Of a stretch of DNA of 64,000 nt, positions 13,820-39,619 are shown one piece after another. The translations under genes were made by a program, and so were the position numbers. Source of the DNA: Streptacidiphilus jiangxiensis (lineage in GTDB: Bacteria; Actinomycetota; Actinomycetes; Streptomycetales; Streptomycetaceae); the NCBI RefSeq assembly GCF_900109465.1, contig NZ_FOAZ01000007.1, positions 286,840 to 350,839 on the forward strand. The letters run 5' to 3'. Below the pieces are notes generated by a model. That model was not told the origin of the DNA, did no database searches, and saw only the letters and a program-made list of their open reading frames with translations. Positions within the stretch are counted from its first letter, which is position 1, and every line of letters begins with the position of its first letter.

Positions 13820-14044
13820 TCAGCCGTCAGCGCCGTTCCCGACCGGCTGATCGGTCGCGCGGTCGCGCAGGGAGCGCGGGGTCATGTCCGTCCAGACTTC
13901 CTCGATGTGGGCGAGGCACTCCTCGTGGGAGCCGCGAAAGCCCGTCGCGGACCAGCCCGCCGGAAGGGCCGGGCCCCCGTCCTCCCACAGTGAGTACTGT
14001 TCTTCGTCGTTGACGACGACCATGTGGATGCGTTCGGTGGTCAT
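13820..14044 (-). CDS. MbtH-family NRPS chaperone
   Basis: 74 residues from ATG 14044, overlapping the stop of the NRPS-MFS gene by ATGA. Family hallmarks are all present: [21 protein letters not shown], the strictly conserved Ser and Cys-Leu in [17 protein letters not shown], and SLR at the end. MbtH proteins bind the adenylation domain and are needed for its folding or activity. As the last gene of the leftward NRPS operon it presumably serves one or more of the four A domains in the cluster. The C-terminal [14 protein letters not shown] tail is ordinary. Confidence 0.95.
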
Positions 14045-17000
14045 CTGTGTTGCAGCTCCTTGTCCGTCGGGTGAGTGGGGCGGTGCGGTCCGCTGGGTCC
14101 GGACCGTTGGGTCCGGTCGTGGTCGCGGTCCGCGAGGATCTGAAGGCCGAGAAGGTCGTCGGGTGGGGCATCCGGCACGGTTGCGTCGAAGCGGCGCAGC
14201 GTCGGCAGGCGCAGCGAGACGGTGACGACGGCGAGCATCGCCAGCGCGAACAGCACGTAGAGCAGGGCCGTTCCGCGTCCCGGGCCCGTGCCGAGGACGC
14301 GTCCCACCGAGTCGGCGAGGGCTCCGTGCCGGGTGAGCAACGGGTTGAGGAGCCCGGTGCCGAGCGGTGCCACGACGCCGAAGGCGAGCGGCAGCGTGGA
14401 CCACGAGATGACCGTGTTCAGGGCGAACACCCGGCCGTGGAAGCGCTGGGCGACCTTCACCTGCACGGTGGTGAAGTAGATGCCGTTCATGATGCCGAGC
14501 GAAAGGCACATGGCGAACGCGCCGACGGCCACCGTCCAGACCTGGGCGCTCAGTCCCGGGACGGCGGAGACGCAGGCCAGGGCGAGGGCCGAGAGCAGCA
14601 CGCCGCGCATCCGCTGGTGGCGGGGGCCTCCCCAGAAGCCCATCACCAGGCCGCCGGCGACCGCGCCCAGGCCCGCGCACAGGGAGACCCGCCCGGCGTC
14701 GGCGAGGTGACCGAAGCTCAGGGTGAGCGGGGTCAGCAGCAGGAACAGCGGGGACAGGAAGATGTTGAGCACCGCGAAGAACAGGAGCATGGACCGCAGT
14801 CCCCGGTTGCCCCAGGAGTGGCGCAGCCCCTGCCTGATCTCCTCGCCCAGGGACTCGCGACGGCGCCACGGGAGGGTGTTCGGGAAGCGCACGGCCGCGG
14901 TGACCGCGACCGCCAGGGCGTAGCTGGTGACGTCGAGGGCCAGGATCCCGTCGAGGCCGATCAGCGCGAGCAGTCCCGTGGCCAGCACGGGGGCGAGTAC
15001 GGACGAGGTGCCGCCGACGACCTGGAGGAGGCCGTTGGCGTGGCCGAGGTACTGCTTGGGGACCAGCTGCGGGATGGATGAGCCGTAGGCCAGCCGCTGG
15101 AAGGTGAGCGCCACGGACAGGACCATGGCGAAGGCGTAGATGGCGCCGACCGTGAGATGTCCGGTCGCGGCTGCGAGGGCGAAGAGGCCCTGGACGCCCC
15201 CGGCGGCGAGGTCTCCGGCCAGCATGACCCGCCTGCGGTCGGCGCGGTCGACGACGGCGCCGGCGATCGGCGCGATGAGCAGGCCGGGGATCAGGCTGAG
15301 GACGGTCAACAGGGCGAACCGTGCGACCGATCCGGTGTGCAGGTAGATCCACAGTGGGACGGCGAACTCGGTGAGGGCGGAGCCGAGCAGCGAGAGGGAC
15401 TGGCCCCCCGCGACGGCGAGGAAGCGTCGCATGTCCGGCGGCGTCCCGGTTCGGGCCCGGTCCTCGCCCGCGGCGTCGTCCGCGCCCTCGGCGACCGCCC
15501 GGCCTCCCGCGCCGGCACCCGAACCGGCACCCGAACCGGCACTGGCACCCGCGCCGGTACCCGCACCCGCACCCGCACCGGTATCGGCGCGGGTGCCAGT
15601 GGCGTCGGTGTCCTCGCCGGCGGTCCCGCGCGGATCCGGCTTCGCGCCGGCCGGCGACCGGGACGACTCCGCCTGAAGCCACCACGTGCGCTCCCCGGCG
15701 GAGCCGCGCAGCCGATCCCCGGCCCCCTCGGCCAGGGCGACGTGCACGCCGGTGACGATCGCGGCGACCTCTGCGGCGCGGTACTTGAGGAAGAAGTGCC
15801 CCGCCTCGTCCAACACGACCAGCGCCGCACGGGGGCTGAGGAAGTGCCACTCGCGGAAGCGCTCGTCGGCGTACTCGGTGGCGGGGTCGCGATCGCCGAC
15901 GACGGAGACGACCGGCGCGGCGATCGGCGTGACGCGCCGGTGGAGCAGCTCGGTGAAGCGCTGCTCGGCGTCCTCGCTGTCCCGGCGCATGGTGCGCACG
16001 ATCCGGTGGGCCTGCTCCTGGTCGAGGTCGCCGAGCTCCAGTCCGAGCCCGCGCAGCCAGTTCTCGTAGACGCGGTTGCCGGTCAGCACGTCGCGCCGCG
16101 CCGCCGCGGCGAGCCAGCGCACCGCGCGGCTGCGTGGGCGGGCGAAGGGAAAGATCCCGCCGACGTAGACGGCCTCCAGGCCACGTCCGGCCGCCTCCAG
16201 ACGGCGGGCCAGCTCCACGGCCACGGCACTGCCGATCGCGCAGTGCCCGTAGAGGGCGAGCGGTCCGGTCACCCGGTCGAGGATCTCCGCCGTGCAGCGG
16301 TCGACCAGTTCGTCGAAGGGCAGCGGCTCCTCGTCGCGGCCGACGTCGTGGCCGGGCATCTGCAGGGCCAGCAGCCGGCAGTCGTCCGGGAGGGCGTCGG
16401 CCACGGGCTGGTAGACCACGGCGCTGCCTCCGCCGAAGGGGGCGCACACCAGGGTCAGTCGTGGGGTGGCACTGACGGAGTTGCGGCGGGTGAGGTCGTG
16501 CAGCAGCGGCGTCGGGCCGCGCTCCGCGGTGGGAGTGCCTGCCAGGTCGGCGAGTTCGCGGACGGTGGGGTTCTGGAAGAGGTCCAGCACGCTGATCCCG
16601 GCCCCGAGGGCCGTGCGCAGCCGGGCGACGACCTGGGTGGCCAGCAGGGAATGGCCGCCGAGGTCGAAGAAGTCGTCGTCCAGGCCCACCTCCGGCACGT
16701 CCAGGACGTCGCACCAGACGCGGGCGATGTCCTGCTGGACGCCGGGGGCGGGGGGCTCGCCGGACCCGGTCGCGCGCGTCGGCGTGGGGGCCGGCAGGGC
16801 GGAGCGGTCGAGTTTGCCGCTCGGCGTGAGCGGCAGTCGGTCCAGCAGCACGTAGGCGGCGGGCACGAACAGGTCGGGCAGTGTGGCCTTCAGGGCGGCG
16901 CGCAGGAGGGCCGGTTCCGGGGCGGTGTCGGCGGCCTCGGTGGCCGTCACGTAGGCCACGAGTCGTTTGTCGCCGGGGCGGTCCTCGCGGACGACGACCG

Positions 17001-19851
17001 CGGCCTCGCGCACCTCGGGCCGTGCGGTGAGCGCCGCCTCGATCTCGCCGGGCTCGATCCGCACGCCGCGCAGCTTCAGCTGACGGTCGATGCGGCCCAG
17101 GAACTCCAGCGCGCCGTCCTCGCGGCGCAGCGCGAGGTCGCCGGTGGCGTACAGGCGCGTGCCCGGCGGCCCGTAGGGGTCGGGGCGGAAGCGGTCGGCG
17201 GTGGCGCCGGGGCGGCCGAGGTAGCCGCGGGCCAGCGCCACGCCGGCGATGTGCAGTTGACCGGGCACGCCGTCGGGGACCGGGCGGCCGCGCTCGTCCA
17301 GGACGTGGAGGCGGGTGTTCTGGATCGGCGTGCCGATGGGCAGGCGTGCCACGCCCTCGCACTGCGCGGGAGGGCAGGGCCAGGAGGAGACGTCGACAGC
17401 CGCCTCGGTGGGACCGTAGAGGTTGTCCACGCGCACGTCGAGCCGTCGCTGCAGCCGGGCGGCGAGCGCGGGCGGCAGTTCCTCGCCGCTGCACACGACC
17501 AGGCGCAGGGCCGTGCACGTCTCGATGTCCTCCTGTTCGACGAACGCGGCCAGCATGGACGGGACGAAGTGCGCGGCGGTGATCCGCTCGGCGGCGATGA
17601 CCTCGCGCAGGTAGGCCGGGTCCTTGTGGCCGCCCGGGCGGGCGAGCACGAGGCGGGCTCCCGCGAGCAGCGGCCAGAAGAACTCCCACACGGAGACGTC
17701 GAAGCCGGCCGGGGTCTTCTGCAGTACCGCGTCGTCGCCGGTCAGGGTGTAGGCGCGCTGCATCCAGTCGAGACGGTTGACGATGGCGGCGTGCGGGACC
17801 AGGACGCCCTTGGGGCGACCGGTGGAGCCGGAGGTGTAGATGGCGTAGGCGGGATCGAGCGGGCCCACCGCCGGCGCCGCGGCGGCTTCGCCGTCGGGTT
17901 CCTGCCGGACGAGGTCGTCCAGCAGCAGCGTCTGCGTGGCCTTCCCCGGTGCCTGCGCCGCGAGCCGGCGCTGCGTCAGCAGCAGGGGAGCGCCGGAGTC
18001 CTCGAGCACGAGGGCCAGGCGTTCGGGCGGGTAGTCGGGGTCGAGCGGCAGGTAGGCGGCTCCGGCGCCGAGCACCCCGAGCAGCGCGGTCACCAGGTCG
18101 AGTGAGCGCTCGGCGTGGACGGCGACCAGTGTGCCGGGACCCGCGCCACGCGCCCGCAGCGCACGGCTCACGCGCCGGGCACGGTCGGCGAGCTCGGCGC
18201 ACGTCAGGCTGCCCTCCTCGGCGGTGACGGCGATCCGGCCGGGAGTCAGGGCCAGCGCGGCGGCAAGACGCGCCGACAGGGTGTCCTGCTCGGGCACGGG
18301 AACGGTGGGGCCGTGGCCCGCCGCCAGGGCCGCCCGCTGTCCGGCCGGGTCCAGCAGGGGCAGGTCCGCGACGGGGGTGTCCGGATCGGCGAGGGCGGCC
18401 GCGAGCAGGGTCGTGAAGGCGCGGGCCAGCCGTCGCGCGGTGGCCCCGGTGAACAGGTCGGTGTTGTGGACGATCTGGCAGTGGAAGCCGTCCGGGCCCT
18501 CGACGACGTACAGCTCCAGGTCGAACCGGGCCGCCCAGGTGCTGACCGGGTAGGTCTCGGCGGTCACGGAGGATGCCTGCGTGCCGCCGCCGGGGCCGTA
18601 GTTCTGCAGGGCGAACAGGACCTGGAACACGGGAGAGCGGCTGGTGTCGCGCGCCGGGTCCAGGGCGGTCACCAGACGTTCGAACGGCAGGCCCTGGTGG
18701 GAGAACGCGTCGAGCGTGTCCGTCCGCACGGCCGTCAGGTGCTGGGCGAAGCTCCGCCCGGGGTCCAGCGTCGCCCGCAACGCCAGCATGTTCACGAAGC
18801 AGCCGACGACGTCCTCGAACTCCGGGCGGGTGCGCCCGGCCACCGGTGTGCCCACGGCGAAGTCGCGTTGCCCGCTGAACCGGCCCAGCAGCAGCTGGAA
18901 TGCGGTCAGCAGGACCATGAACGGGGTGGCGGCCCCGGCCCGGGCCATCTCGTTCACGCGCCGGCTGGTCTCCTCGCCGAGCGCAAAGGAGTGGGTGGCG
19001 CCGCAGAAGGTCTGCCGGGCCGGTCTGGGACGGTCCGGCGGCAGGTCCAGCGCCGGGACGCCGGCCAGGCGCGGCAGCCAGTAGCCCAGGTCGCGGGTCT
19101 CCTCGTCCCCGGCGTCGCGGCCGCGCTGCCAGGCGGCGAAGTCCCCGTAGCGGACCGCCGGTTCGGGCTGCGGTGCGGCGCCGTCGGCCAGCGCCAGCAG
19201 CTCCCGCAGCAGCAGTTCGGCGGACCAGCCGTCGCAGGCGAGGTGGTGCACGCGCAGGACCAGCACGTGCTCCTCGGGGCCGAGCCGGAGCAGGAGGGCG
19301 TGGGCCAGCGGGGCCCGCGCGGGGTCGACGGGCCGCGCGAGCTCCGCCTCGACGCGTTGCTGCGCCTCCTCCTCGCTCGCGACGGTGACCGTGGGGAGCG
19401 CGGGGGCGGCGTCGGGGTCCACGACGGCCACGGGGCGGCCGTCCTCGGTGGCGGGGAAGCGGGTGCGCAAGGCCTCGTGACGTCGGATCACCTGGTGCAG
19501 CGCGTGCTCCAGGGCGGCCGGGTCCAGGGCGCCGCGCAGGCGCCGGACCAGGGGAATGGTGTAGGCGGCGGTGCCGGGTGCGTACTGCTCCATGAACCAC
19601 AGCCGCTCCTGGGCGTACGACAGGGGCGGGTCCGGCTGGGTGCGGCGGGGGATCGGCGCGGGGGCCTCGCGTCCGGATGGCCGCAACCGTGCGGAGAGCA
19701 GCGAGGCGCGGGCGGTGGCAGCGTCGGTCGGCGAACCGGGTGCCGAGGGCCGGGCGGCGGTGGGCGGGGCCGGAGAGGGCCGGTCGGTGGCGGGCGGGGC
19801 CGGAGAGGGCGGTTCGGTGGTGGGCAGGTCGGTGGTGGGCAGGTCGGTCAT
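14041..19851 (-). CDS. NRPS module C-A-T-TE fused to an MFS exporter
   Basis: 1936 residues. ATG 19851 overlaps the upstream stop (ATGA). Order: Pro/Thr-rich leader; C domain with HHLACDG (~201); A domain with [11 protein letters not shown] (~670), [23 protein letters not shown] and TPSGKLDR; T domain with DLGGHSLL (~1062); TE (~1115-1370) with GHCAIG (~1200), GDRDPA and GHFFLKY. A Gly/Ala-rich linker (~1380-1470) leads into a complete 12-helix MFS domain (~1472-1890) starting [10 protein letters not shown], with [11 protein letters not shown] in loop 2-3. The pocket reads D-V-W-H-V-S-L-V-D-K, matching serine codes. It should add Ser, release the chain and perhaps export it. TE has Cys as nucleophile instead of Ser. 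Confidence 0.93.
15505..15600. repeat. imperfect short tandem repeats encoding the Gly/Ala linker between TE and MFS
   Basis: The DNA consists of repeated ACCGGCAC/ACCCGCAC-like units, which encode alternating Gly-Ala with some Ser and Thr on the minus strand ([20 protein letters not shown]). Such slippage-prone sequence is expected to vary in length between strains. It marks the junction of the thioesterase and transporter parts. Confidence 0.7.
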
Positions 19852-22800
19852 GCGGTCGGGGTCCTTCCGAGGGATTCGGCCACCTCGTCGTCGGTCAGCC
19901 GGTCGATGTCGTCCAGCACCAGGGCGCGAACCGCCGCCGCCAGGCCGGCCAGGGTGCGGTGTTCGAAGAGCACCCGGACCGGAATCTCCACGTCCACGGT
20001 GGCGGACAGTCGCGCGGCCACCCGCAGGGCGTGCAGCGAGTGTCCGCCCAGGAGGAAGAAGTCGGCCTCGGGCCCGAGCGGACCGCACCCCAGCACCCCC
20101 GACCAAACGGCGGCCACGAGTTCCTCGGCCTCGTCACGCGGCTTCGACCACCCGGAGCGCCCGTCAGGCAGGTCCGCGTCCCTGGCAGCCGGCACGGCCG
20201 CCAGTGCGGCCAGCGCCGCCCGGTCCACCTTGCCCGTGCCGGTGAGCGGCAGGCGCTCCACCTGCCGCAGCCGCACCGGCAGCAGGCGGGAGGGCAGCGC
20301 GGCGGCCAGCGCGTCGTGCAGGGCGGAGAGGTCGTCGAGGCCGGTGACCACGAACGTGGTCAGCGCCTGGTCCACCACCGTCACCGCTGCGGCGGTCACC
20401 GCCGGGTGGGCGCACAGGACGCGTTCGATCCCGGCGGGCTCGACGCGCAACCCGCGAACCTTGACCTGGTCGTCGATCCGGCCGAGGTGGCGCAGGCGGC
20501 CGTCGGGGAGCCACAGGGCGAGGTCCCCGGTTGCGTACAGCCGGGATCCGGGCGGGCCGTAGGGGTCCGGGCGGAAGCGGTCGGCGGTCCGGGCCGGGTC
20601 GCCCCGGTAACCGCGGGCGAGTCCGGCGCCGCCGAGGTACAGCTCGCCGGGCGTGCCGACCGGCACCGGACGCATCCGGCTGTCGAGGACGTGCGCCTCG
20701 GTGTCGGCGAGCGGCCGTCCGATCGGCGGGTCCATGTCCTGCGGCACGACCGTGCCCGCGCCGATCTCCTGACCGTGGCCGACACCGGGGCTTTCGACGC
20801 CGCCGCCCGCGGCGAAAACGTCGCACGCGGTGGCGACGACGGTGGCCTCGGTGGGTCCGTAGGTGTTGACCAGACGCGGCCCGGGACCGACCGCGCGCCG
20901 CCAGGCCGCGACGGCGCCGGCGTGGGCCGTCTCCCCGCCCACCACGAGCAGGCGCAGGCCCGGGGGCCATGCGGTGGCCGGCTCGGCCGCCAGCGCGTGC
21001 CAGTAGCTGGTGGGCAGGTCGAGGACGGTCAGTGAGGCGCCGTCGGCCGTACGCAGGAAGTCGGGCAGGAGTTCGCCGCCCCCGGGGAGCAGGACCAGGG
21101 CGGCGCCCCGGGTCAGGGCCGGGAAGATCTCCTCGGCGTGGGTGTCGAAGGCGGGCGAGGCGAACTGCAGCACGCGGTCGCCGGGGCCGAGCCGGTACTC
21201 CTCGCCCATCCAGCGGACCCGGGCGGCCAGGCCCTCCCGGGTGACCATGACGGCCTTCGGCGCGCCGGTCGTGCCGGAGGTGTGGCACAGGTAGGCGAGC
21301 CCGGGGCCGGCGGGCGGTCCCGACGTGGCCGGGGTGGCGGGGCGGGGTCCGTCCTCGTCGAGGAGCAGATCGGCGCCCGACCCGGCCAGGAGCGCATCGA
21401 CGCGGGCAGGGGGGTCGTTCGGGTGCAGGCCGGTGTAGGCGGCGCCGGTGGCCAGGATCGCGAGCAGTGCGGCCACCAGGTGGACCGAACGCTCCCGGCG
21501 TACGGCCACGACCCGGCCCGGACCGCAGCCCGCCGCGCGCAGCCGGTCGGTCTCGCCGCGCACGAGCTCGGCCAGCTCGGCGTAGCTCCAGGCGCGGCCG
21601 CGGTCGTGGACCGCCGCGGCGGCGGGCGTGCGGGCCGCCTGGGCGGCGAAGAGCTCGGACACGTCCAGGGCGGGGGCCTCGGGGTGCGGCCCACGCGCGA
21701 GGGCGAGCAGGCGGTTGTGTTCCTCGGAGGTCAGCAGCGGCAGCAGGTCGACCGGTTGGTCGGGCGTGCGGGTCGCGGCGTCGACGAGCGTGGCCAGGTG
21801 ACGGGCGAGTTCCCGTCCGGCGGCGTGGTCGAAGAGGCTCAGCCGGTGGCCGAGCAGGAGGGTGAGGCCGTCGGTTCCGGTCATCCGGTCGTGGCCTTCG
21901 AGCGTCAGTGGGGCCTTGACGCGGTGCAGGCCGTCCCCGAAGGGCGTGACGGCCAGGCCGGGCAGGGCCCGCATGCTGCCGGTGGGGGCGCCCGCGCCGA
22001 GGACGAACATGGCCTGGTAGGGGCCGGCCGGGTCGCGCGGCAGTTCCTCGAACGGGACCTGGGGGTGGGCGTAGGCGGCGAAGAACCGGGACCGGTTGCG
22101 GCGCATCAGGTCCCGGAAGGAGGGTCGGTCGCCCAGCTCGGCCCGTAGCACCACGGTGCTGCTCAGGTACCCGAACAGCGGCTCGGTCTCCAGCTCGTCC
22201 CGGCAGGCGAGCGGGGTGCCGACGCAGACGTCCGTCGTCCCCGCCCAGCGGGCGACTAGCACCTGGAACGCGGAGAGCAGCACCACGAAGACACTGGTGC
22301 GCTCGGCCCTGGCCAGCTCGCGCACGCGCTGCTGTGCGTCGTGGGGGAGGGGAACGGGGTGGAACGCCCCGGCGGAGTCGCCGTCGGCGGCGAGTGCCTC
22401 GGGGCGGGTTCCCGCCGGGGCCAGCGCGGGTGCGCCGTCGAGCTCGCGCAGCCAGTGGGCGCGGTCGGCGGCGGCCCGTTCCCGCAGGAGCTCCGCGTGC
22501 CGGTGGAAGGGTCGGGCCAGGGCCGGCGGTTGGTCCTGTCGGCCCGCGAGCAGGCTTTCGTAGCGATCCGCGAGCTCCGCGGCCCACAGGTCCAGGGACC
22601 AGCCGTCGGCGGCGATGTGGTGCACCACCAGGCTGAGCACGTGGTCCTCGGGGCCCAGACGCAGCAGGCCCAGGCGCACCGGCGGCTGCTCGCACAGGTC
22701 GAACGGCAGGTCCAGGCGGCGGCGCAGTTCCCGCGTCGCCATGGCCTGCGGGTCGGCCGATCCGCTCAGGTCCACCAGATCCAGCGGTACCCCGGCCGGG

Positions 22801-23033
22801 CGCACCCGCCCGCGGGCGACGCCCTCGTCGTCGACGTAGACGGTGCGTAGCGGCTCATGGCGCTCGGCCAGGTCCGCGAGTGCCGCCTCGAGGACCGGCC
22901 GGTGCAGCGTGCCGCGCAGGCGGGCGTTCCAGTAGACGTGGTAGGCGGTGTCCTGCGGGTCGAGCCGGTGCAGGAACCAGAGCCGTTCCTGCGCGGGGGA
23001 GAGACGGAAGTCCAGCCGTCGGTCGTCGCTCAC
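19848..23033 (-). CDS. NRPS module C-A-T, basic amino acid predicted
   Basis: 1061 residues from GTG 23033 (GTGA overlap with the upstream stop). C domain: HHIAADGWS near residue 137. A domain: a variant A3, [14 protein letters not shown] (~583), A5 [11 protein letters not shown] and A10 TGTGKVDR. T domain: LLGGHSLH (~994). The A2 region ([14 protein letters not shown]) also departs from the common AYVPLDP form. Pocket residues read D-T-E-D-V-G-T-V-V-K by eye. Two acidic residues at positions 239 and 278 point to a positively charged side chain such as Lys, Orn or a diamino acid; I cannot name it with certainty. No epimerase or methylase domain is present. Confidence 0.9.
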
Positions 23034-26000
23034 GCGAGCTCCTCCACGGCCCGGCTCAGTCCGGTGATCGTCGGGGTGTCGAAGTAGGCGTGGAGGGGGA
23101 GGTCGACGCCGAGCCGGTCGCGGACCCGGGCGGCGATCCGCGAGATGACCAGGGAGTGCCCGCCGAGGTCGAAGAGGTCCTCGTCGGGGCCGACCGCGTC
23201 CACGCCGAGCACCTCGCACCAGATGGCGTGCATCTCGGCCGCCGTGCCCTCGTACGCGACCGCGGCCGGTTCGCCGGCGCGGGTGGGCGCGAGGGCGGGC
23301 AGCGCGGACCGGTCCAGCTTGCCGTTGAGCGTGGTCGGCAGGGCGTCGAGCCGGACGACGGTCGTCGGCACGGCGTAGCCGGGAAGGAGGGCCACCAGGT
23401 GGGCGCGCACCGCGGCCGGGTCGGCGTCGCCAGTCACGTAGCCGACGAGGGTGTCGCCGTGGAGCCGGGCGGCGGCGGCCCGTACCTGAGGGGCCGTGCG
23501 CAGCGCGGCCTCCACCTCGCCCAGTTCGATGCGATGGCCGCGCACCTTGACCTGGTCGTCCAGGCGGCCGAGGAACTCCAGCCCGCCGTCGGCCCGGTGG
23601 CGGACCAGGTCGCCGGTGCGGTACATGCGGGCGCCGGGGGCTCCCCAGGGGTTGGGGACGAAACGGTCGGCGGTCAGCGCCGGTCGGCGCAGGTAGCCCT
23701 GCGACAGTCCGGCGCCGCCGATGAACAGCTCGCCGGGCACCCCGATCGGACACAGCCGCCCACGCCGGTCCAGCACACGCAGCCGGGTGCCCGGGATCGC
23801 CGTGCCGATCAGGACGTGCGGCGGGTCGGGCGGGAGTTCCCAGCCACTGGACCAGATCGTCGTCTCGGTCGGCCCGTAGAGGTTGACGGCGCGTCCGGTG
23901 CGGGCGCGCAGCTCCCGGGCGACGGGCAGCGGCAGAGCCTCGCCGCCGACGAGGGCGGTGATGCGGGGGGCGTGCAGGCCGGCGGCGAGCAGGACCTGCC
24001 AGCCCGTGGGCGTGGCCTGCAGGTGGGTCACCGCGCGTTCGCGGGCCAGCCGGGCCAGGTCCGTGCCGTCGCCGGCTGCCTGCTCCTCGTCGGGGAGCAC
24101 CAGGCGGCCGCCGGTGGTGAGCGGCAGATGCGTCTCCAGCCCGGAGATGTCGAAGGAGACGGAGGTGAGCCCGAGCCAGGTCGCCTCCGGGCCGGTGCCG
24201 CCGACGAGCGAGGCGGTGGCGTCCAGGAAGGCGGTGAGCGCGCCGTGGGCGACGGCGACGCCCTTGGGCCGCCCGGTCGAACCGGAGGTGTAGAGCACGT
24301 ACGCGGTGTCCTGCGCGCCCGGTGGCGGCCCGTCCAGGGCGCGCGACCGCAGATCGTGCCCTGTCTCGCAGCCGTCCACGCGGACCTGCGGCGTGGCGCA
24401 GTCCTGGGGCAGCCGGTCCGCGGACGCCGAGGACACCAGCACGCAGCGGGCCCCGGAGTCCTCCAGTGCGAGCGAGGTCCGGGTGGCCGCGTAGCGGGGG
24501 TCGAGCGGAAGATAGGCCGCGCCCGCCCGCCAGACGCCCAGCAGCGCGGCGATCAGGGCGGGCGAACGCTCCACGAAGACGCCGACCACGTCGCCGGGCG
24601 CCACGCCGTGCGCGCGCAGGCGACGCGCGATCTCCGCGCTCATGCCGTCCAGCGCACGGTAGCTGACGACGCTTCGCTCCGCGGCGCCGTGGCAGTCCCC
24701 GCCGCTCGCGTCCAGGGCCGGGGCGTCCGGCGTGGCGCGAGCCTGAACGAGGAAGCGGTCCAGCGCCGTGGCGCCCGCGGTCGCAGTCAGCGCCGGGCCG
24801 TCGCCCAGGAGGAGGAGCTCGGCCCGCTCCGGCTCGGGCAGCAGATCGGCGTCGAGGGCGGGCGCGTCGGGGGCGGAGACGAGCGAGCGCAGCAGGGTGA
24901 GGTAGCGCTCGCTCACGCGGCGTGCGGTGTCCGCGGTGAACAGCCCGGTGGACCAGCTGAGGTGGCACTCGGTGCGCCCCGGACCACGCCAGACCTCCAT
25001 CGCGAGATCGCACTTGGCCTGGCCGTAGTCGATCTCCAGCACGTCGCCGGAGCCGCCGCCCAGGGCGAAGCCGTCGGAGTCGATGTGCTGGAGGGCGAAC
25101 ATGGTCTGGTAGACGGGCGTGCGTGAGCGGTCGCGGGCCACCTCCAGACGTCCGAGCAGCTCCGCGAAGGGCATGTGCTGGTGGGTGAAGGCGGCCAGTG
25201 TCCGGGAGCGGACCCGGTCCACGAGGGCGTCGAAGCTCGGGTCGCCGCTCAGGTCGGCGCGCAGCGCGACGGTGGTGGCCAGGCACCCGACCACCTCCTC
25301 GTGCTCGACCCGGGTGCGACCGGCGACGGGGGTGCCCACGCAGAAGTCGAGTTGGCCGCTGTGCCGGGCCAGCAGGACCTGCCAGGCGGCCAGCAGCACC
25401 ATGAAGGCGGTGCAGCGGTGGGCGCGGGCCAGCTTGTCGATGTCGGCCAGCAGTGCGGTGGGGAGCTCGGTCTTGTGCAGGCCGCCGGTGCTGACGCGGA
25501 CCGGTGCGCGCGGCAGGTCGGTCGGGAGCTCCAGGTCCGGCGCCCCGGTCAGTTCACCGGTCCAGTGGTCCAGAGCGGCCCGGCTGCGCGCGCGGCCCTC
25601 GGGGCCGAGCAGTTCGGCGGTGTAGTCGCCGTGGGTGTGGGCGAGCGGGGCGAGCGGGGACGGCTTGCCCTCGGCGTAGGCCTCGTAGACGTGGGCGATC
25701 TCGGCCCCGAGCACCCGGATCGACCAGCCGTCCGCGGCGATGTGGTGCACCACCACGCACAGGACGTGGTCCTGCGGCGCCAGGCGCAGCAGGGTGGCCC
25801 GCACGGGCGCGCCGGCGGCCAGGTCGAACGGACGCCGGACGCGCGAGAGGACCTCGGTGTGGGCGGCCCGCAGCGCGGCCCCGGGGTCCGGCGCGTGGCC
25901 GGGGCCGTCGAGGTCGACCAGCTCGAGCGCGATGGTCGTGGACGGGTCGGTGCGGGCCAGCGGGACGCCGTCGGTCTCGGTGTAGTGGGTGCGCAGCGTC

Positions 26001-26158
26001 TCGTGACGGGACACCACCTCGTCCAGGGCGCGCCCCAGCACGGCCGGGTCGAGAGCGCCGTGCAGGCGGTGCACCCAGAAGATGTTGTAGGAGGCGTCCT
26101 CGGGGTCCAGCTGTTGCAGGAACCACAGACGTTCCTGGTGGGGGGAGAGCTCAGGCAC
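23030..26158 (-). CDS. NRPS module C-A-T, glycine predicted
   Basis: 1042 residues from ATG 26158, which overlaps the end of the T-C gene by 8 bases. C domain: HHIAADGWS near residue 136 and [12 protein letters not shown] domain: [14 protein letters not shown] (~621), [33 protein letters not shown] and TLNGKLDR. T domain: DLGGHSLV (~996). Pocket residues read D-I-L-Q-L-G-L-I-W-K, which agrees with known Gly codes, so glycine is the likely substrate. The protein ends right after the T domain, so the chain passes in trans to the next module, encoded directly downstream. Confidence 0.92.
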
Positions 26159-27809
26159 GGGCGGGCTCCTGACCGTGGGCGACGGCTTCGACGTGCGCGC
26201 GGAAGGCCTCGGCGAGGGCGGCAGCGGTGGCGCCGTCGAAGGCGTGGTGGTTGTGGACGACGGCGGCCTCGAGCGTGCCGTCCGGTCGTTCCTCGGCGAT
26301 CAGCTCGGGGGTGCTCAGGTCCGGCTCCCCGTTCGGCGTGGGCCAGTCCAGGCTCTGCTGCTCGCGCGGCAGCGCGAAGGCCTCGGAGCGCAGTCCGGGG
26401 AAGAACGGGGTGCCGCCCCAGCTCTCGTAGTGGATGCGTGCGGGGTAGGGCACCTGCAGCGCGGTCTCGTGGTAGGCGTGGAACTGGTGGCGGGCGGCAT
26501 CGAGGGCGGCCGTGCGCACGCGCTCCAGCAGCGCGGCGAAGTCGGGCCGCCCGCTCGTGTCCACGCGGATGAGCAGGGACTGGACCAGGCACCCGATCAG
26601 CGCGTCGTGCTCCGGCAGGGTGCGGCCGGGCACGGGGGACATCAGCACGATGTCGTCGGCGCCGGTCCACTCGTGCAGGACGGCGGTCCAGCAGGTGGCG
26701 GCGCCCATGAAGGCCGTGCCGCCCGTGGCGGCGACGCGCTCGCGGAAACGGGCCCACAAAGGTGCGGCGAGCGTGAGCGGGTGGCGCCGCCGGGAGAAGC
26801 GGTGCGCCTCACGCCGGCCCGGGAACGGTTCCAGCGCGCGGGGCGCGCCGTGCAGGGTCCGCTGCCAGTAGGGCCGGTTCAGCGTCCACTGCTGTGCGGT
26901 CCAGTCGCAGTAGGCCTCGTGGTCCAGCGTCAGCGGTGGCAGCGGATCGCGGTCGCCGGTCTGCAACGCCGAGTAGCGCAGGCCGAGTTCACGCAGCAGG
27001 ACGCCCAGGGACCAGCCGTCGAAGACGAAGTGGTGGACGGCGAGGACGACCACCCAGTCGTCGGGGGCGAGGCGGACCGCCAAGGCGCGTACGAGCGGGT
27101 CGTGCGGCAGCTCCGGGGCCAGGTCGCGGGCCGCGCGGGCGAGCTCGGCCGCGTGCCGTTCGCGTTCCTGCGGGGTCTCTCCCTGTGCGTCGACGACCTC
27201 GACCACGGGGGGCCGGTGCGCGGTGGTGGAGGGGGAGAGACGCCCGGTCGGGGTGGCCCGGAAGGCGGTGCGCAGCGGGGAGTGACGGCGGGTCACCGCG
27301 TCGAGTGCTTGCCGCAGCAGCTCAGGGTCGAACGGCTCGTGGAGGCGCAGGGCCGTGCAGACGGTGCCGGGGTCCCGGGGCGGGTCGGTGGCGGCCATCC
27401 AGTCCAGGAACTCCCACTGCTGGGTGGTGAGCCGCTGTCCCGGTCCGGGACCGCCCGCCGGGGCGTCCGGGGCGTCCGGGGCGTCCGGGGCGTCCGGCGC
27501 GTGCGGCGGGTCGGCGGTCGCCGCGGCGGCCCCGGCGGTGGAGTCGATCCAGGCGGCCTGTCCGCGCAGGCGGGGGCGGTCGAAGGCCAGCGTCACGGGC
27601 AGGTCGACGCCGAACAGCCGTCCGGCCTCGACCGCCAGGCGGGAGGCGCGGAAGGAGTCCCCGCCCAGGGCGAAGAAGTCGTCGTCGAGGCCGATCCGGG
27701 GGACGCCGAGGAGCCGCCGCCAGATCCGGGCGAGGACGGTCGCAGTGGCGGTCCACTGCGCTGACTGCTGGTCAGCGAGGGTGCTGCCGTGACTCGGTGA
27801 AGCATCCAT
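26151..27809 (-). CDS. free-standing T-C didomain NRPS protein (loading/starter)
   Basis: About 552 residues. ATG 27809 is used, but GTG 27863 is also possible and neither has a strong ribosome binding site. A carrier domain comes first, with DDDFFALGGDSFRAS (Ser near residue 47). A disordered linker of APD repeats follows, then a condensation domain with HHFVFDGWS (~257), MSPVPGRTLPEHDALIGC and late NHHAFDG. There is no A domain, so the carrier must be charged in trans; the AMP ligase starting at 27988 is the obvious candidate. The C domain would then pass the starter acyl group to the Gly module. It is the first gene of the leftward operon. Confidence 0.88.
   Translation of the reverse strand: MDASPSHGSTLADQQSAQWTATATVLARIWRRLLGVPRIGLDDDFFALGGDSFRASRLAVEAGRLFGVDLPVTLAFDRPRLRGQAAWIDSTAGAAAATADPPHAPDAPDAPDAPDAPAGGPGPGQRLTTQQWEFLDWMAATDPPRDPGTVCTALRLHEPFDPELLRQALDAVTRRHSPLRTAFRATPTGRLSPSTTAHRPPVVEVVDAQGETPQERERHAAELARAARDLAPELPHDPLVRALAVRLAPDDWVVVLAVHHFVFDGWSLGVLLRELGLRYSALQTGDRDPLPPLTLDHEAYCDWTAQQWTLNRPYWQRTLHGAPRALEPFPGRREAHRFSRRRHPLTLAAPLWARFRERVAATGGTAFMGAATCWTAVLHEWTGADDIVLMSPVPGRTLPEHDALIGCLVQSLLIRVDTSGRPDFAALLERVRTAALDAARHQFHAYHETALQVPYPARIHYESWGGTPFFPGLRSEAFALPREQQSLDWPTPNGEPDLSTPELIAEERPDGTLEAAVVHNHHAFDGATAAALAEAFRAHVEAVAHGQEPARA
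27462..27497. repeat. 9-bp tandem repeat, four copies
   Basis: Four exact copies of GGCGTCCGG encode the repeated Ala-Pro-Asp linker between the T and C domains on the minus strand. In-frame expansion or contraction would only change linker length. Confidence 0.85.
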
Positions 27810-27987
27810 GGGAAGCGTCCAAGGTGGTTCGCAGACGGCGGGACGGGCGGTGCGAGTGAGCACTCTGGCTCATGAAGACGATCTCTGCAAGAGGATTCAG
27901 AAACTTGCTGCAACCCCTTCCCAAGCATGTTTCGGCGCTGTTACCGTCCCGGGCTGTCCGCAGTCGAACAGCCGAAGGGGGCGCGCC
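27810..27987. promoter_or_regulatory. divergent promoter region of the two NRPS operons
   Basis: This is the only non-coding stretch between the leftward (T-C first) and rightward (AMP ligase first) operons, so promoters for both must lie here or just inside. TTGCTGCAA near 27903 and TTACCGT near 27940 are weak promoter-like elements. AAGGGGG just upstream of ATG 27988 is the ribosome binding site of the rightward operon. No pathway-specific regulator gene lies in the cluster. Confidence 0.5.
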
Positions 27988-29712
27988 ATGCCGCGAGTCG
28001 AGCAGTCACAGCGGCCACCCGACGCCCCCTCCCGACCGCTCACGGTGCCGGGCCTGCTGGCCGACCGCGCCGCCCGAGATCCCGAAGCCGAAGCGATCGT
28101 CGACGCCCGTAGCCGGCTCAGCTTCGCCGCCTGGCACCGCGACGCCACCACGCTGGCACGGGCCCTGGCCGCCACGGGCCTGCGGCACGGCGACCGGGTG
28201 GCCCTGCTCCACGGCACCGACTGGACCGGCTACGCCGTCGCGTTCTGCGCGGTGCTGGCGGCGGGCGGCGTCGCCGTCCCGCTCACCTCCGGCCTGCCGC
28301 CCCGTCAGGCCGAGGAGACCCTGGGCCGCACGGGCGTCCGCGTCGTCCTGCACGCCCCCGACGAACAGCCCCCGCCGGGACCCTGGCGAACCGACACCGC
28401 CGAGACCCTGCTTGCCCGCGCCCATGGCCCGGCCGCGGGCACGGAACCGCTCGTGCCCGCGCCAGCCTGCCGACCCGGGGACCTCGCCCAGATCGTGTGC
28501 ACCTCCGGCAGCACGGGCACCCCGAAGGACGTGGGCGCGACCCACGCCAACCTCTGCCACGGCTCGACCGCCCGCGGGCGCGGCCCACGCCGCTACGCCC
28601 ACTCGCGGGCCATGCTGCACGCGTTCCCGATCGGCACCAACGCCGCGCAGATGATGCTCATCGAAGCCCTCACCGCGCATCCCACCCTGGTGTGCGCCGG
28701 ACGCTTCGACGCGGACGACTTCTGCGCGCTGATCGAACGACACCGGGCCGGCACCGTCTTCCTCGTGCCCGCGATGGCCGCCGAACTGCTGCGCTCCGAC
28801 GCACCCGCGCGCCACGACCTGAGCACGGTCCAGCTGGTCAGCTCCTCGGCGGCGGCGCTGCCGCCGGCCCTCGCCCGCGGTCTGACCTCGCTCTTCCCCG
28901 GCGCGTTCCTGGTCAACTACTACACCAGCACCGAGGCGGTGCCCGCCCAGGTCAGCATGCTGGTCGACCCGAACCGCCCGGACGCCCTCGGCCGCCCGGC
29001 CGACCCGCGTGACCTGAGGATCGCGGACGAGCAGGGCGAACCCCTCCCGCCCGGCACCGTCGGCGAGGTGTGGCTGCGCTCGGACGCGCCCCCGCGCCGC
29101 TACGAGAACGACCCCGCCACCACCGCCGCCGTCTTCCGCGACGGGTGGGTGCGCATGGGCGACCTCGGCCGCATCGACGAGGCGGGCTACCTGTGCCTCG
29201 TCGACCGCGACAGCGACGTCATCAAGTCGGGTGCCCTGAAGGTGTCCACGCTGCGCATCGAGGCGGCGCTGCTGGAACATCCCCTGATCGTCGAGGCCGT
29301 GGCCGTCGGTGTCCCCAGCCCCGTCATGGGCGCCGTACCCGCGGTGGTGGTGCGCGCCGAACCCGGTCTCGACCTCGACGAGCTGCGCGACCATCTCGCC
29401 CGGCGCCTGAGCCGCGCCGAGCGGCCGGTGTGGATCGTGCCGGTCCTGGCCATCCCGCGCACCGCCACCGGCAAGCCGGTCAAGCCGCAGGTGCGCGCGC
29501 TGGTGCAGGCGGCCATGGCCGCGCCCGCGCCGCCCCCGGCAGCCGCGCCGGAGCCGCGGCCCGCACCTGCGCCCGAGCCGCGGCCCGCACCTGCGCCCGA
29601 GCCCGCCGCCTCCCTCATCGACCCCTTCGGCCGGTCCTTCATGACCGCCCTGCCTGCGACGGCCACCGATCCCGACCACCGCACGGAAGCGAGCCCCGAT
29701 GCCGCTCAGTGA
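27988..29712 (+). CDS. acyl/aryl-AMP ligase (ANL superfamily)
   Basis: 574 residues from ATG 27988, with AAGGGGG upstream. Adenylation motifs: CTSGSTGTPKDVGATH (P-loop), YYTSTEAVPAQ, GWVRMGDLGRIDEAGYL and TATGKPVK with the catalytic Lys. It lacks C and T domains and the usual NRPS A-domain pocket motifs, so it resembles free-standing acyl-CoA/acyl-AMP ligases. Its place at the head of the rightward operon, facing a T-C gene without an A domain, suggests it activates the starter acid and loads that T domain. A Pro/Ala-rich tail carries two exact 24-bp repeats. Its end overlaps the next start by 14 bases. Confidence 0.88.
   Translation: MPRVEQSQRPPDAPSRPLTVPGLLADRAARDPEAEAIVDARSRLSFAAWHRDATTLARALAATGLRHGDRVALLHGTDWTGYAVAFCAVLAAGGVAVPLTSGLPPRQAEETLGRTGVRVVLHAPDEQPPPGPWRTDTAETLLARAHGPAAGTEPLVPAPACRPGDLAQIVCTSGSTGTPKDVGATHANLCHGSTARGRGPRRYAHSRAMLHAFPIGTNAAQMMLIEALTAHPTLVCAGRFDADDFCALIERHRAGTVFLVPAMAAELLRSDAPARHDLSTVQLVSSSAAALPPALARGLTSLFPGAFLVNYYTSTEAVPAQVSMLVDPNRPDALGRPADPRDLRIADEQGEPLPPGTVGEVWLRSDAPPRRYENDPATTAAVFRDGWVRMGDLGRIDEAGYLCLVDRDSDVIKSGALKVSTLRIEAALLEHPLIVEAVAVGVPSPVMGAVPAVVVRAEPGLDLDELRDHLARRLSRAERPVWIVPVLAIPRTATGKPVKPQVRALVQAAMAAPAPPPAAAPEPRPAPAPEPRPAPAPEPAASLIDPFGRSFMTALPATATDPDHRTEASPDAAQ
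29551..29598. repeat. two exact 24-bp tandem repeats
   Basis: Units 29551-29574 and 29575-29598 are identical and encode repeated PRPAPAPE in the tail of the AMP ligase. It is a disordered linker, similar in kind to the other low-complexity linkers of this cluster. Confidence 0.85.
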
Positions 29713-32700
29713 CCGCCAGCCCCACCCCCTGTCCGCGACGCAGCACGGCATCTGGGTCACCGAACGCGCCGGGGGCCTCGGCACCGTCTTCTCCATGCCG
29801 TTCGCCGTCACCCTCACCGGCGACGTCGACCAGGAGGCGCTGCGCGCGGCCTGCCGCACCCTGGTGCGCCGCCACCCCGTGCTCGGCTGCGCCGTCCGGG
29901 AACGGGCCGGCGTGCCGGGCCTGGTTCCCGCTGCCGTCCCCCCGGTCCCGGTCACCGTGGACCTGCGCGAGGACCCGCAGCTCGCGGCCGCCGTGGAGGA
30001 GGGGGAGATCCGGCGGCCCTTCGACCTGGAGCACGGGCCCCTGGTCCGGTTCACGTTGCTCCGCACCGCCGACGACACCGTCCGGCTGCTGGTCGTGGCC
30101 CACCACCTGGTCTTCGACGGCCGGTCGACCTCGATCCTTCTCGACGACCTCGCGCTGCTGTACGCGGGCAAGGAACTGCCCGACCTCCCACCGGACGGAC
30201 ACCCTGACGACGCGGAAGACCGCATCGCCGAACTGCTCTCGGGCGCCCGCGACTTCTGGCGCACCCAGCCTGCCGTCGAGCACAGCGTGCAACTGCCCGG
30301 CCTGCGATCGCTGCCCGAGCCGGCGCCCCGCCGAGCCGGCGACGGGGCTTCGGCGGGCGCCGTCGTGATTCGGGACCTGGACGACGCGCTGCGCCGCGCC
30401 GTCGCCGAGGCGTGTGCGGAGCTGGGACTGACCGTCTTCCAGTTCACTGCTGCCACCTGGCTGGCGTTGCTGCACCGCTACGGCAACCCCACCCCCGTCC
30501 TCGGCGTCGACCTCGGCACCCGCCGACCCGCGGACCTCGAGCGGATCGGCGCCCACGTCAACGAACTGCCGCTCACCCGCGCACCGCACCGCGGTGAGAG
30601 TTTCCGTGACTTCGCCCAGTCCCTCGTCTTCGAACAGGGACTGCGTTCCGACCTGCGAGGCCTGTACCGGTACCGGGAGGTGCCGTTGGCCCGCGCCCTG
30701 CCCGGCGTGCGGCCGGGCGCCGCGCTGGTGCCGGTCACCCTCGGTTACCGTCGGCGAGAGGCACCACCCGGCTTCCCCGGGGCGGAGGCCATGGTCGACT
30801 GGGCGCTGCCCAACGGCACCTCGCGCGGTGCGCTGCGGATCCACATGGTCGACGGCCCCGACGCCTGGCGGTTCGCCCTGAACCACGACCCGCAGGCCCT
30901 GGCTCCGGCCTTCGCCGAGCGGATCGCCGACCACTGGTGCGCCCTCGCGGCCGCGGTCGCCGCGCGGCCGGACGCCCTCCTCGACAGCCACGACCTCGCA
31001 CCCGAGGAGACCGTGCTGCGCGCGCAGGCGAACGCCACCGAGGTGCCGATGCCCCCCAAGACCGTGGGAGAGCTCGTGGCCGACCAGGCGTCGCGGACGC
31101 CGGACCGGGTCGCGGTGGAAGACGGGAGCCTGCGGCTGACGTACCGCCAGCTTCAGCAGGCCGTCGCGGCGACGGCGGGCCGGCTGAGTGCCGCGGGCGC
31201 CCGTCCGGGAGGTCTCGTTGCCCTTGCGCTTCCACGTTCCGCCGCCTGCCTGGTCGCGCAACTCGCGGTCCTGCGCTGCGGCGCCGCCTACGTGCCGCTC
31301 GATCCGCAGCACCCCTCCGCGCGGCTGGCCCTGCAGCTCGAGGACTGCCGCCCGGATCTGCTGCTGGCCCTGCCCGGCGGCGCCGACGCCCTCCCGGCGT
31401 CCGCGCACACCCCGCTGCTGGTCCTCGATCCGACAGCGGACCTCGCCGCCGCCACCGCCGCCGGCACGGGTGACGGTGCGCCGGGCGGTGTGCCGGGCGG
31501 TGTGCCGGTCGGGCGGGACCGCGCATACGTGCTCCACACCTCGGGGTCGACGGGCCGGCCCAAGGGCGTCGAGATCGAGCACCGGGCCCTGGTCAATCTG
31601 CTGCTGTCCTTCCGGTCCCTGCTCGGCGACGGCGACGGCGGCGGTGATCGCGACACAGCCGGTGGCGGTCCGGTCGGCGGCGGCGGCGAACCCGGCCGCG
31701 AGCAGGCTCCGCGCTGGCTGGCCCTGACCTCGCCGACCTTCGACATCTCCGCCCTCGAGTGCTACCTGCCGCTGATCGACGGCGGACGTGTCGTGTTCGC
31801 GCCGCCCGGCGCCGCCCTGGACGGCCGGGCGACCGAGGCGCTCGTGCGAGAGCGGGGCATCACGCACGTGCAGGCGACACCGTCCGGTTGGCAGTTGCTG
31901 CTCGAGGCGGGGGTCGGCGGGCCGGGGCTGACCGCGGTGGTGGGCGGGGAGGCGCTCGCGCCGGTGCTGGCAGCGGAGTTGACGCGCCGCTGTGGCCGGG
32001 TGCTGCATGCCTACGGGCCGACGGAGACGACCGTCTGGTCGACCGTCGACCAGGCGCTGCCGACGAGCGGCGCTCCGGTGCTCGGTCGTCCGATCGCGAA
32101 CACCACCGTGCAGGTCCTGGACCGGTGGGGGCGTCCGGTTCCGGCCGGTGTGCCGGGCGAGCTGTGGATCGGGGGCGCGGGGTTGGCGCGCGGCTATCTC
32201 GGTCGGCCCGGCGCGACCGCGGACCGGTTCCGTCCCGACCCGGACGGCGCCCCGGGGGCGCGACGGTATCGCACGGGCGACCTGGTGTGCCGGGGGCTGG
32301 ACGGGCGTCTGGTGTTCTCGGGGCGGCTGGACGGGCAGGTGAAGATCCGCGGTCACCGGGTCGAGACCGGCGAGATCGAGTCGGCGCTGCTCGCCCTGCC
32401 CGAGGTGGTGCGCGCGGCGGTCGTCGCGCACGACGGACCGGCGGGAGCGGTCCTGACCGCCTTCGTGGTGGCCGTCCCGGCCGAGCCGTCGTCCGCGGGG
32501 CTGCGTGCGGCCCTGTCCCGCGTCCTGCCCGCGGTGATGCTGCCCGAGCGCTGGCGTTTCCTGGACCGGCTCCCGTTGACGGCTGCCGGGAAGGTCGACC
32601 GCGTCGCGCTGGGGCTGCTCGCGGACGCACAGCCGCACACCGGCGTCGAGACCGGTGCCACGCCCGGTGCCGAGGCCGACACGCCGGACCGGGACGGTCC

Positions 32701-32959
32701 GGCGCCGGGAGCGTCCGTGCCGGCCCATGCCGTGGTGGTCCGCGAGATCTGGGCCGAGGTCCTCGGTGTGCCCGCGGTGGACCTGGAGCTGGACGAGGAC
32801 CTGTTCGAGCTCGGTGGTCACTCGCTGACGGTGGCGCGGATCGCGGCCAGGATCAGCGACCGCCTGGGCGTGGATCTGCCGCTGCATCAGCTCTACGACG
32901 AGGCGACGGTGCGCGGCATGGCCCTGGCCGTCGCCCGGATCGAGGGAGGGACCCGATGA
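29699..32959 (+). CDS. NRPS module C-A-T, glycine-like code
   Basis: 1086 residues from ATG 29699. C domain: HHLVFDGRS near residue 134. A domain: [14 protein letters not shown] (~612), FDISALECYLPL, HAYGPTETTVWS, YRTGDLVC and TAAGKVDR. T domain: ELGGHSLT (~1038). Pocket residues read D-I-L-Q-V-G-A-V-W-K by eye, close to Gly codes but with Ala at position 322, so Gly is likely, not certain. A Gly/Asp-rich insertion lies between motifs A3 and A4 (about residues 640-665). It overlaps the next gene by ATGA. Its order relative to the leftward modules cannot be read from gene order. Confidence 0.92.
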   Translation: MPLSDRQPHPLSATQHGIWVTERAGGLGTVFSMPFAVTLTGDVDQEALRAACRTLVRRHPVLGCAVRERAGVPGLVPAAVPPVPVTVDLREDPQLAAAVEEGEIRRPFDLEHGPLVRFTLLRTADDTVRLLVVAHHLVFDGRSTSILLDDLALLYAGKELPDLPPDGHPDDAEDRIAELLSGARDFWRTQPAVEHSVQLPGLRSLPEPAPRRAGDGASAGAVVIRDLDDALRRAVAEACAELGLTVFQFTAATWLALLHRYGNPTPVLGVDLGTRRPADLERIGAHVNELPLTRAPHRGESFRDFAQSLVFEQGLRSDLRGLYRYREVPLARALPGVRPGAALVPVTLGYRRREAPPGFPGAEAMVDWALPNGTSRGALRIHMVDGPDAWRFALNHDPQALAPAFAERIADHWCALAAAVAARPDALLDSHDLAPEETVLRAQANATEVPMPPKTVGELVADQASRTPDRVAVEDGSLRLTYRQLQQAVAATAGRLSAAGARPGGLVALALPRSAACLVAQLAVLRCGAAYVPLDPQHPSARLALQLEDCRPDLLLALPGGADALPASAHTPLLVLDPTADLAAATAAGTGDGAPGGVPGGVPVGRDRAYVLHTSGSTGRPKGVEIEHRALVNLLLSFRSLLGDGDGGGDRDTAGGGPVGGGGEPGREQAPRWLALTSPTFDISALECYLPLIDGGRVVFAPPGAALDGRATEALVRERGITHVQATPSGWQLLLEAGVGGPGLTAVVGGEALAPVLAAELTRRCGRVLHAYGPTETTVWSTVDQALPTSGAPVLGRPIANTTVQVLDRWGRPVPAGVPGELWIGGAGLARGYLGRPGATADRFRPDPDGAPGARRYRTGDLVCRGLDGRLVFSGRLDGQVKIRGHRVETGEIESALLALPEVVRAAVVAHDGPAGAVLTAFVVAVPAEPSSAGLRAALSRVLPAVMLPERWRFLDRLPLTAAGKVDRVALGLLADAQPHTGVETGATPGAEADTPDRDGPAPGASVPAHAVVVREIWAEVLGVPAVDLELDEDLFELGGHSLTVARIAARISDRLGVDLPLHQLYDEATVRGMALAVARIEGGTR

Positions 32960-33978
32960 CCCGCGCGACACCTGACGCACCCGAGAGCTCGGCCGCGCGG
33001 GTTCCCGCCGTGCACGTGAACTGGACGGGGCCGCACCGGGCAGGGCTCCGGCGGACCCGGTCCGGCTCCCGGCGTGGTCCCTACGCTCTCGCGGAGCCTG
33101 AGATCCTCACCTGCGTGCACGGGGCGCTGGCCTGGCGGCGCCTCCACGGCCCGGTGGAGTTGGCCACCGACTCGCTCGGCGCCGCCTGGTTCCGCGAGCA
33201 GGGGCTGGACGTGCTCTACGACCGCATCGACACCGACCTCGACGAACTCGACGACCTGGCCCTGGACCCCGTCGTCTACTTCACCGGCGGCAAGTACCTG
33301 GCGGTGCGCCGGCGCACGGCCCCCTTCGCGCTCCTGGACCTCGACCTCTATCTGCGCCGTCCACTGCCGGGCCTGGACGGCAAAGGGTTCGTCTTCGCGC
33401 ACTGGGAGTCCGTCGGCAACGCCGTCTATCCGGAGCCCGCGGAGCTGCTGGGCCGCTCCGGCGCGGACCTCGGCGGTATGCGTTTCGACACGCCGGCCAC
33501 GAACATGGCCGTCGCGGCGTTCCTGGACGAGGAGCACCGGGCGGCGTTCGCCGAGGCCGCCCTCGGCTACGCCCTCGCCAACGGCGGTCCGGCGCCGCTG
33601 CACCCCGTCGCGCGGGCCGCGTTCGCCGAGCAGCGCCTGGCACCGGCCGTCGCCCGCAGGCTCGGCACGCCGCTGCGCCCCGCCGGTGACGGCTTCTGGC
33701 TGGTCGAGGAGGAACGCTGGGACGGGCCCGCCCCGGTCGAGCTGTTCCACCACACCTGGAACCTCAAGGCGGTGCTGCGCAACGTGCCGGACCTGCGGGC
33801 CGGCTACACCCGCCAGCTGATCGAGGAACTGCTGTGGCGTCACCCGGAGAGCCTCGACCTGCTCCTGCGCGTGCCCGCGCTAGCCGCACTGGCTCCGGTC
33901 GTCCGCGCGGTCGCGGACGGGTTGGAGCGCCACGGCCCGCTCACCGCCCACGGCGCCGCCGCGCCACCCGGCCGCTGA
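32956..33978 (+). CDS. glycosyltransferase-like protein (DUF6734-like)
   Basis: 340 residues from ATG 32956, overlapping the NRPS stop (ATGA) and preceded by GGAGGGA. The middle has VELATDSLGAAWFREQGLDV followed by YFTGGKYLAV and LLDLDLYLRRPLPG. The DLD placed after a strand resembles the metal-binding DxD of GT-A glycosyltransferases. The layout, a strand with ATD and then a DxD strand, recalls DUF6734-type proteins. No transmembrane segment or signal peptide is seen. Coupling to an NRPS gene suggests a tailoring step, perhaps glycosylation of the peptide, but neither donor nor acceptor is known. Confidence 0.55.
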   Translation: MTRATPDAPESSAARVPAVHVNWTGPHRAGLRRTRSGSRRGPYALAEPEILTCVHGALAWRRLHGPVELATDSLGAAWFREQGLDVLYDRIDTDLDELDDLALDPVVYFTGGKYLAVRRRTAPFALLDLDLYLRRPLPGLDGKGFVFAHWESVGNAVYPEPAELLGRSGADLGGMRFDTPATNMAVAAFLDEEHRAAFAEAALGYALANGGPAPLHPVARAAFAEQRLAPAVARRLGTPLRPAGDGFWLVEEERWDGPAPVELFHHTWNLKAVLRNVPDLRAGYTRQLIEELLWRHPESLDLLLRVPALAALAPVVRAVADGLERHGPLTAHGAAAPPGR

Positions 33979-34071
33979 CCCGCAGCGCCGGGACACCGGC
34001 ACACGACCGCGCCCGCCCCGGGTGGGACGGCGCGCCCTGATTCGACCGATTCCCGACCACCAGGGGGACAC

Positions 34072-39560: not shown

Positions 39561-39619
39561 GGACGACGCCTGGCAGAGGGACGACGCAGCCGACGGGCAT
39601 GGATGAAAGGGGCGTACCT

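Follow-up and report, generated by a model that had tools for sequence, protein, structure and literature searches.

The terminal non-ribosomal peptide synthetase (NRPS) gene of the window, the 64,000-nucleotide stretch of Streptacidiphilus jiangxiensis DNA analysed here (G+C content 72%; source genome 9.5 Mb), codes for a protein in which a thioesterase (TE) with a cysteine nucleophile of the obafluorin type lies behind a serine-coded adenylation (A) domain and in front of a fused transporter. Our leading reading of this arrangement, to which we give a probability of about one half, is that the peptide is released as a serine beta-lactone.

The gene is located on the minus strand at 14041-19851, with an ATG start at 19851 and an uninterrupted frame of 1936 residues, in which Pfam placed Condensation, AMP-binding, carrier, Thioesterase and MFS_1 domains in this order (C-A-T-TE-MFS). 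The condensation domain (18349-19626, minus strand, PF00668) exhibited the HHLACDGW motif of an ordinary C domain; a heterocyclisation (Cy) domain was ruled out, HHxxxDG being present in all 118 rows, of 122, with that column filled. It is followed on the same strand by the A domain (16786-18276, PF00501), the carrier domain (16531-16740, PF00550), the TE domain (15715-16515, PF00975), for which ObiF1 was the best PDB sequence match and which a structural model and fold match assigned in the same way, and, C-terminal to the TE, by the MFS transporter domain (14044-15432; PF07690, 3.6e-21; PF05977, 1.5e-12). The A-domain code DVWHVSLVDK, claimed in the initial annotation, was recovered by alignment, and from specificity tables we take it to mean serine. 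The Cys elbow and the Ser code of that annotation were correct, with the fused transporter overlooked.

The nucleophile elbow indeed reads GHCAIG and not GHSxG (16231-16248, minus strand), with the cysteine codon TGC at 16240-16242. Alignment to ObiF1 (PDB 6n8e, PMC6668435) placed on the same strand a glycine at triad position I (16141-16170, motif VYVGGIF, corresponding to ObiF Gly1173), the catalytic aspartate at position II in GDRDPATE (15874-15897, ObiF1 Asp1254) and the catalytic histidine in EAGHFFL (15787-15807, ObiF1 His1284). The triad, Cys1204, Asp1322 and His1352 in the numbering of the protein, with Gly at position I, is thus of the obafluorin type. The GDRDP aspartate comes after strand 204-209 of the TE model, by count beta-7 in the SulM numbering, and the TE has the features of the Cys-type strained-ring TEs, namely a Cys nucleophile, an Asp in position II after beta-7 and, as in ObiF, a small residue in place of Asp at position I.

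The closest solved structures were ObiF1, which forms a beta-lactone, followed by SulM, which forms a beta-lactam, with type II TEs below. ObiF1 is only about 30% identical to the window TE, yet it is the best match in sequence and in fold; according to PMC6668435, it shares with the window protein the Cys in YGHCA, the Asp at position II, the Gly at position I, the C-A-T-TE order and a terminal beta-hydroxyl, which for the window protein is predicted from the Ser code. The two differ in that the terminal residue of ObiF is beta-hydroxy-homophenylalanine, its A domain excluding L-Ser and L-Thr, and in that an MbtH-like domain stands behind the TE of ObiF (PMC6668435), an MFS transporter behind that of the window. 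SulM (PDB 8w2c and 8w2d), the second-best fold match at 17-20% identity, has likewise a Cys nucleophile and an Asp at position II, but its elbow is Gln-Cys-Asn, its substrate N-sulfo-diaminopropionate and its product a beta-lactam, as described in PMC11298585, according to which its TE also needed full reconstitution. The type II TEs RifR and BorB, ranking next, are unlike the window TE in being separate, hydrolytic proteins with a Ser nucleophile; a free-standing editing TE of the RifR type does not correspond to a TE that lies inside a 1936-residue synthetase and has a Cys nucleophile.

This likeness bears on the best surviving alternative, which we nevertheless consider unlikely: simple hydrolysis to a linear peptide with a C-terminal serine, the cysteine being an inheritance of the clade. 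Hydrolytic editing TEs of the RifR type have the same triad layout as the window TE (PMC6668435), which favours hydrolysis. Against it, the ObiF C1146S variant is described as yielding only the hydrolysed beta-hydroxy acid (PMC6668435). SulM C2818S rapidly hydrolyses the lactam (PMC11298585), so that in both known cases it is the cysteine that permits a strained ring to arise or to persist.

A tree in which the nucleophile column was masked split 198 rows of the family, along with ObiF and SulM, from five RifR-like Ser TEs with a support of 100, and a careful tree of 72 rows gave the same 67 versus 5 split at 100/100, with the MFS-fused TEs as a subclade at 99/99. The window TE does not group with hydrolytic TEs, a placement that the initial annotation had named as fatal to its idea, within a comparison made against five outgroup TEs: RifR (whose nucleophile is Ser, with Ala at that place in the structure chain compared), BorB, one TE of the window's genome and two NRPS-embedded TEs. 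Where precisely ObiF and SulM belong in the 72-row tree is loosely defined, since they stand, with some others, on long branches and the outgroup consists of five TEs, none of them a canonical type I TE; as both lie near the editing type II TEs, kinship alone is no proof of ring formation. Of the 67 rows on the ObiF/SulM side, 57 have Cys and 10 have Ser, and the nucleophile changes five times over the whole tree. A single clade for all Ser-nucleophile rows was rejected (p 5.3e-5), so that inside the MFS family the nucleophile switched two times or more. For the two groups of Ser TEs with DTED codes, a single origin appeared in 0% of 200 bootstrap trees, which suggests separate origins, but the AU test did not reject a common one (p 0.238); since these groups may share one origin, the independent switches are few.

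With the TE region as query, 1073 of the 7983 proteins scored matched at E <= 0.001. The nucleophile was Cys in 118 and Ser in 2 of the best 120 of these 1073, and GHCAIG is thus neither chance nor a sequencing error at the Cys codon. The MFS domain was present in 119 of the same 120 (P0108 is without), the nearest listed relatives were about 69% identical to the window TE, and many listed relatives bear the NCBI name 'non-ribosomal peptide synthetase/MFS transporter'. These are like the window protein in their C-A-T-TE-MFS order, Cys TE and mostly Ser code. A second search, with a Ser-TE member as query, added 39 proteins, and the listed matches of both searches, each of which had about a thousand matches, come to at least 159 proteins. 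We fetched 80 named loci, of which 43 were counted (L010-L051 and L073); the other 37 are distant or partial, and a crude motif search showed in them mostly Ser or no clear elbow, with GHCLGG in L057. At a threshold that we set at E <= 1e-50, the TE was matched in 43 of 200 genomes of the window's own family, the window's included, with at most 12 candidates scored per genome and 46 matches read. The TE-MFS kind extends beyond actinobacteria, since L050, from a Lachnospiraceae metagenome-assembled genome (a rumen Firmicute), codes for a TE-MFS protein with the elbow GHCMGG, a Ser code and an MFS domain confirmed by Pfam.

The window's genome contains 13 other PF00975 matches, and all five whose elbow was read have Ser. 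It contains also, on another contig, a C-A-T-TE-MFS paralogue (L009, 7681-13200) with the elbow YGHCGLG and the code DFTKVGHVGK. This Asp-like code offers the Cys TE of the paralogue no obvious beta-hydroxyl; by sequence, its neighbours are a ligase and genes resembling E1 and E2 parts of 2-oxoacid dehydrogenases.

The nucleophile was compared with the terminal A-domain code, on the presumption, made throughout, that the codes stand for Ser, Cys, Thr, Gly, Asn and Asp-, Orn- or diamino-like residues as named here. In the set of 204 rows nearest the window, the 190 rows with a Cys TE and a readable code were Ser-coded in 149 cases, Cys-coded in 24, Asp-like DFTK in 14 and Thr-coded in one, the last two having DFLKIASVAK and DMPQVGLVWK. 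All 11 readable Ser-nucleophile rows had DTED codes, and the code was unreadable in three (P0130 and L023 with Cys, P0148 with Ser). The Ser nucleophile occurred in this set only where a terminal Ser-activating A domain is absent and every Ser-, Cys- or Thr-coded module had Cys, which argues against the cysteine being mere inheritance in a hydrolytic enzyme. The locus L011, which has a Ser TE, ends with the DTED module. P0148 has the order A-C-T-TE-MFS, its sole A domain at residues 32-383 and the terminal A missing; with its elbow AHS, the deletion of the terminal A domain and the nucleophile change coincide in this protein.

Among 46 further loci, MFS-fused members were told from the length after the TE, a criterion confirmed by Pfam for L141, L158 and L167. 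The 27 loci with a long MFS-sized tail all had Cys (codes Ser 7, DFTK 4, DLTKIAHVSK 9, DMGEIG[SA]VDK 5, Gly 1, DFLK 1), and the 19 untailed loci comprised Cys TEs behind Ser (3), Thr (2), DMYNFGLIHK (2), an unread code (1) and DIWQSTADDK (4), together with seven Ser TEs, these also behind DIWQSTADDK. The 204 and 46 rows make 250, and without repeats of the TE core 239 remain, four with unread code; because the rows share ancestry and were chosen for their likeness to the window TE, the counts are not independent trials. In these 239, the nucleophile was Cys in 176 of 176 TEs behind Ser, Thr or Cys codes, and the other readable codes went with 42 Cys and 17 Ser. The Cys TEs behind such other codes include those with Gly (L141), the Gly-like DMPQVGLVWK (L049), the Orn-like DMGEIG[SA]VDK (5) and the Asp-like codes (18 DFTK, the genome's paralogue among them, and 9 DLTKIAHVSK). 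Behind the Orn-like code of L167-L171, the Cys TE-MFS might possibly close a six-membered lactam. In the DIWQSTADDK group (L142, L143, L146-L151, L154, L156 and L157), four Cys and seven Ser TEs stand behind an identical code; without an MFS-sized tail and within the window's family, this group is a natural comparison set for the role of the nucleophile. A strict rule that a Cys TE means a beta-nucleophile consequently fails clade-wide, as Cys occurs with Gly, Orn-like, DLTKIAHVSK and DFTK codes and DIWQSTADDK is mixed. Cys alone is not diagnostic of strained-ring release, given the 42 Cys TEs behind other codes and one code served by either nucleophile. Hydrolysis, in turn, is favoured by the mixed DIWQSTADDK group and by the retention of Cys after Gly, Orn-like and Asp-like codes, for which a beta-lactone is unexpected.

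The proposal of the initial annotation that a strained ring is released is nonetheless better supported than when it was made and, at roughly even odds, the likeliest of the readings. It is favoured by the grouping with ObiF and SulM, which are also the best fold matches, the triad, the Ser code and the invariant Cys behind Ser, Thr and Cys codes in the clade members sampled, and weakened by the Cys TEs behind other codes, the 10 Ser TEs among the 67 rows and the mixed group. For a beta-lactone, the A domain would load serine onto the carrier, as its observed code predicts, and the peptidyl-seryl chain would pass from the carrier to Cys1204 as a thioester, presumably aided by Asp1322 and His1352, which are in place. 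The serine hydroxyl would attack this thioester in a tight, lid-covered pocket to give the four-membered ring; by homology to ObiF and SulM, the use of Cys and not Ser may allow the ring to form and keep the enzyme from reopening it, and the fused MFS domain may export the reactive product. This mechanism agrees with the coupling of the Cys TE to Ser, Thr and Cys codes and with the Ser nucleophile of TEs that no terminal Ser A domain precedes, but not with the Cys TEs that follow Gly- and Orn-like codes or with the mixed DIWQSTADDK group.

It appears quite improbable that the TE uses the serine hydroxyl or an amine of the penultimate diamino acid for macrocyclisation or for oligomerisation in the manner of EntF. 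EntF, too, terminates its assembly line and acts on a seryl intermediate, as mentioned in PMC6668435. The NCBIfam EntF model aligns to residues 75-1223 with 552 bits, far below its cut-off of 2400 bits, and a DTED-coded, probably diamino, residue precedes the serine. An oligomerising TE of the EntF type has a Ser nucleophile and an Asp at position I, where the window TE has Cys and Gly. The least probable of the readings considered, that the terminal side chain sets which small or labile ring or adduct is made (a beta-lactone from Ser or Thr, a beta-thiolactone from Cys, a delta-lactam from Orn-like residues, others from Asp-like ones), would suit one Cys TE family taking all these terminal codes but is impossible for the Gly-coded rows L141 and L049, as far as the code meanings we assume hold.

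Upstream of the terminal gene, also on the minus strand, are two C-A-T modules, at 19848-23033 with the code DTEDVGTVVK of the penultimate residue, which we take to be of the diamino-acid type, and at 23030-26158 with the Gly code DILQLGLIWK, as well as a T-C protein assigned by Pfam (26151-27863, start approximate). The plus strand carries a stand-alone adenylating ligase (27808-29712, start approximate; Pfam and fatty-acyl-CoA-ligase-like matches) with the code NAMFSSYPAK, in which Asn takes the place of Asp at the first position, likely a carboxylic-acid starter ligase, and a further C-A-T module with the Gly-like code DILQVGAVWK (29699-32959). The product backbone would probably be acyl-(Gly)-Gly-diamino acid-Ser. 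L015, L018 and L178 have the Gly - DTED - Ser order as well, and L012 has it with Cys for Ser; an Asn - Ser order was found in eight Micromonospora/Amycolatopsis loci (L019-L022, L025, L027, L031 and L034), each adjoining a member of a long protein family that looks PKS-like. Farther along the plus strand (33979-41304), an FtsX-type permease gene (PF02687), a large gene with no Pfam match (37329-39557) and two ABC ATPases (PF00005) are possibly a second exporter or a self-protection system. Between the NRPS and the transporter genes, 32956-33975 gave a weak DUF6734 match below the cut-off. No self-resistance copy (duplicated SerRS or proteasome) was seen in the genome, which has one SerRS and two adjacent proteasome-family matches, a point against the beta-lactone reading.

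In the open-access PMC papers searched, we found no function or product for the NRPS/MFS transporter proteins and no match to the specificity code strings, and recognised no literature on NRPS-MFS fusions or their serine beta-lactones, which is not proof of absence. What is new here is a widespread family combining an ObiF-like TE, plain serine and a fused exporter, on which we recognised no paper in the same source. More tentatively than for the window protein, we suggest that a large, mostly actinobacterial C-A-T-TE-MFS family may release small N-acyl peptides of proteinogenic residues as C-terminal serine beta-lactones (and cysteine beta-thiolactones), hand them to the fused exporter, and take up Ser as the nucleophile once the terminal Ser module has been lost. 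As reactive warheads to which few NRPS routes are known, beta-lactones are of interest, and obafluorin is the sole TE-made beta-lactone that we met in the papers searched; a family of at least 159 proteins that keeps the obafluorin-type TE with plain serine would be, if this reading is true, a large and searchable source. The natural Cys/Ser swap allows TEs to be compared for the features that enable strained-ring closure, and with the fused transporter one can ask if the release of a reactive product is tied to its export. If true, the enzyme of S. jiangxiensis would make a reactive serine beta-lactone peptide and ship it out itself.
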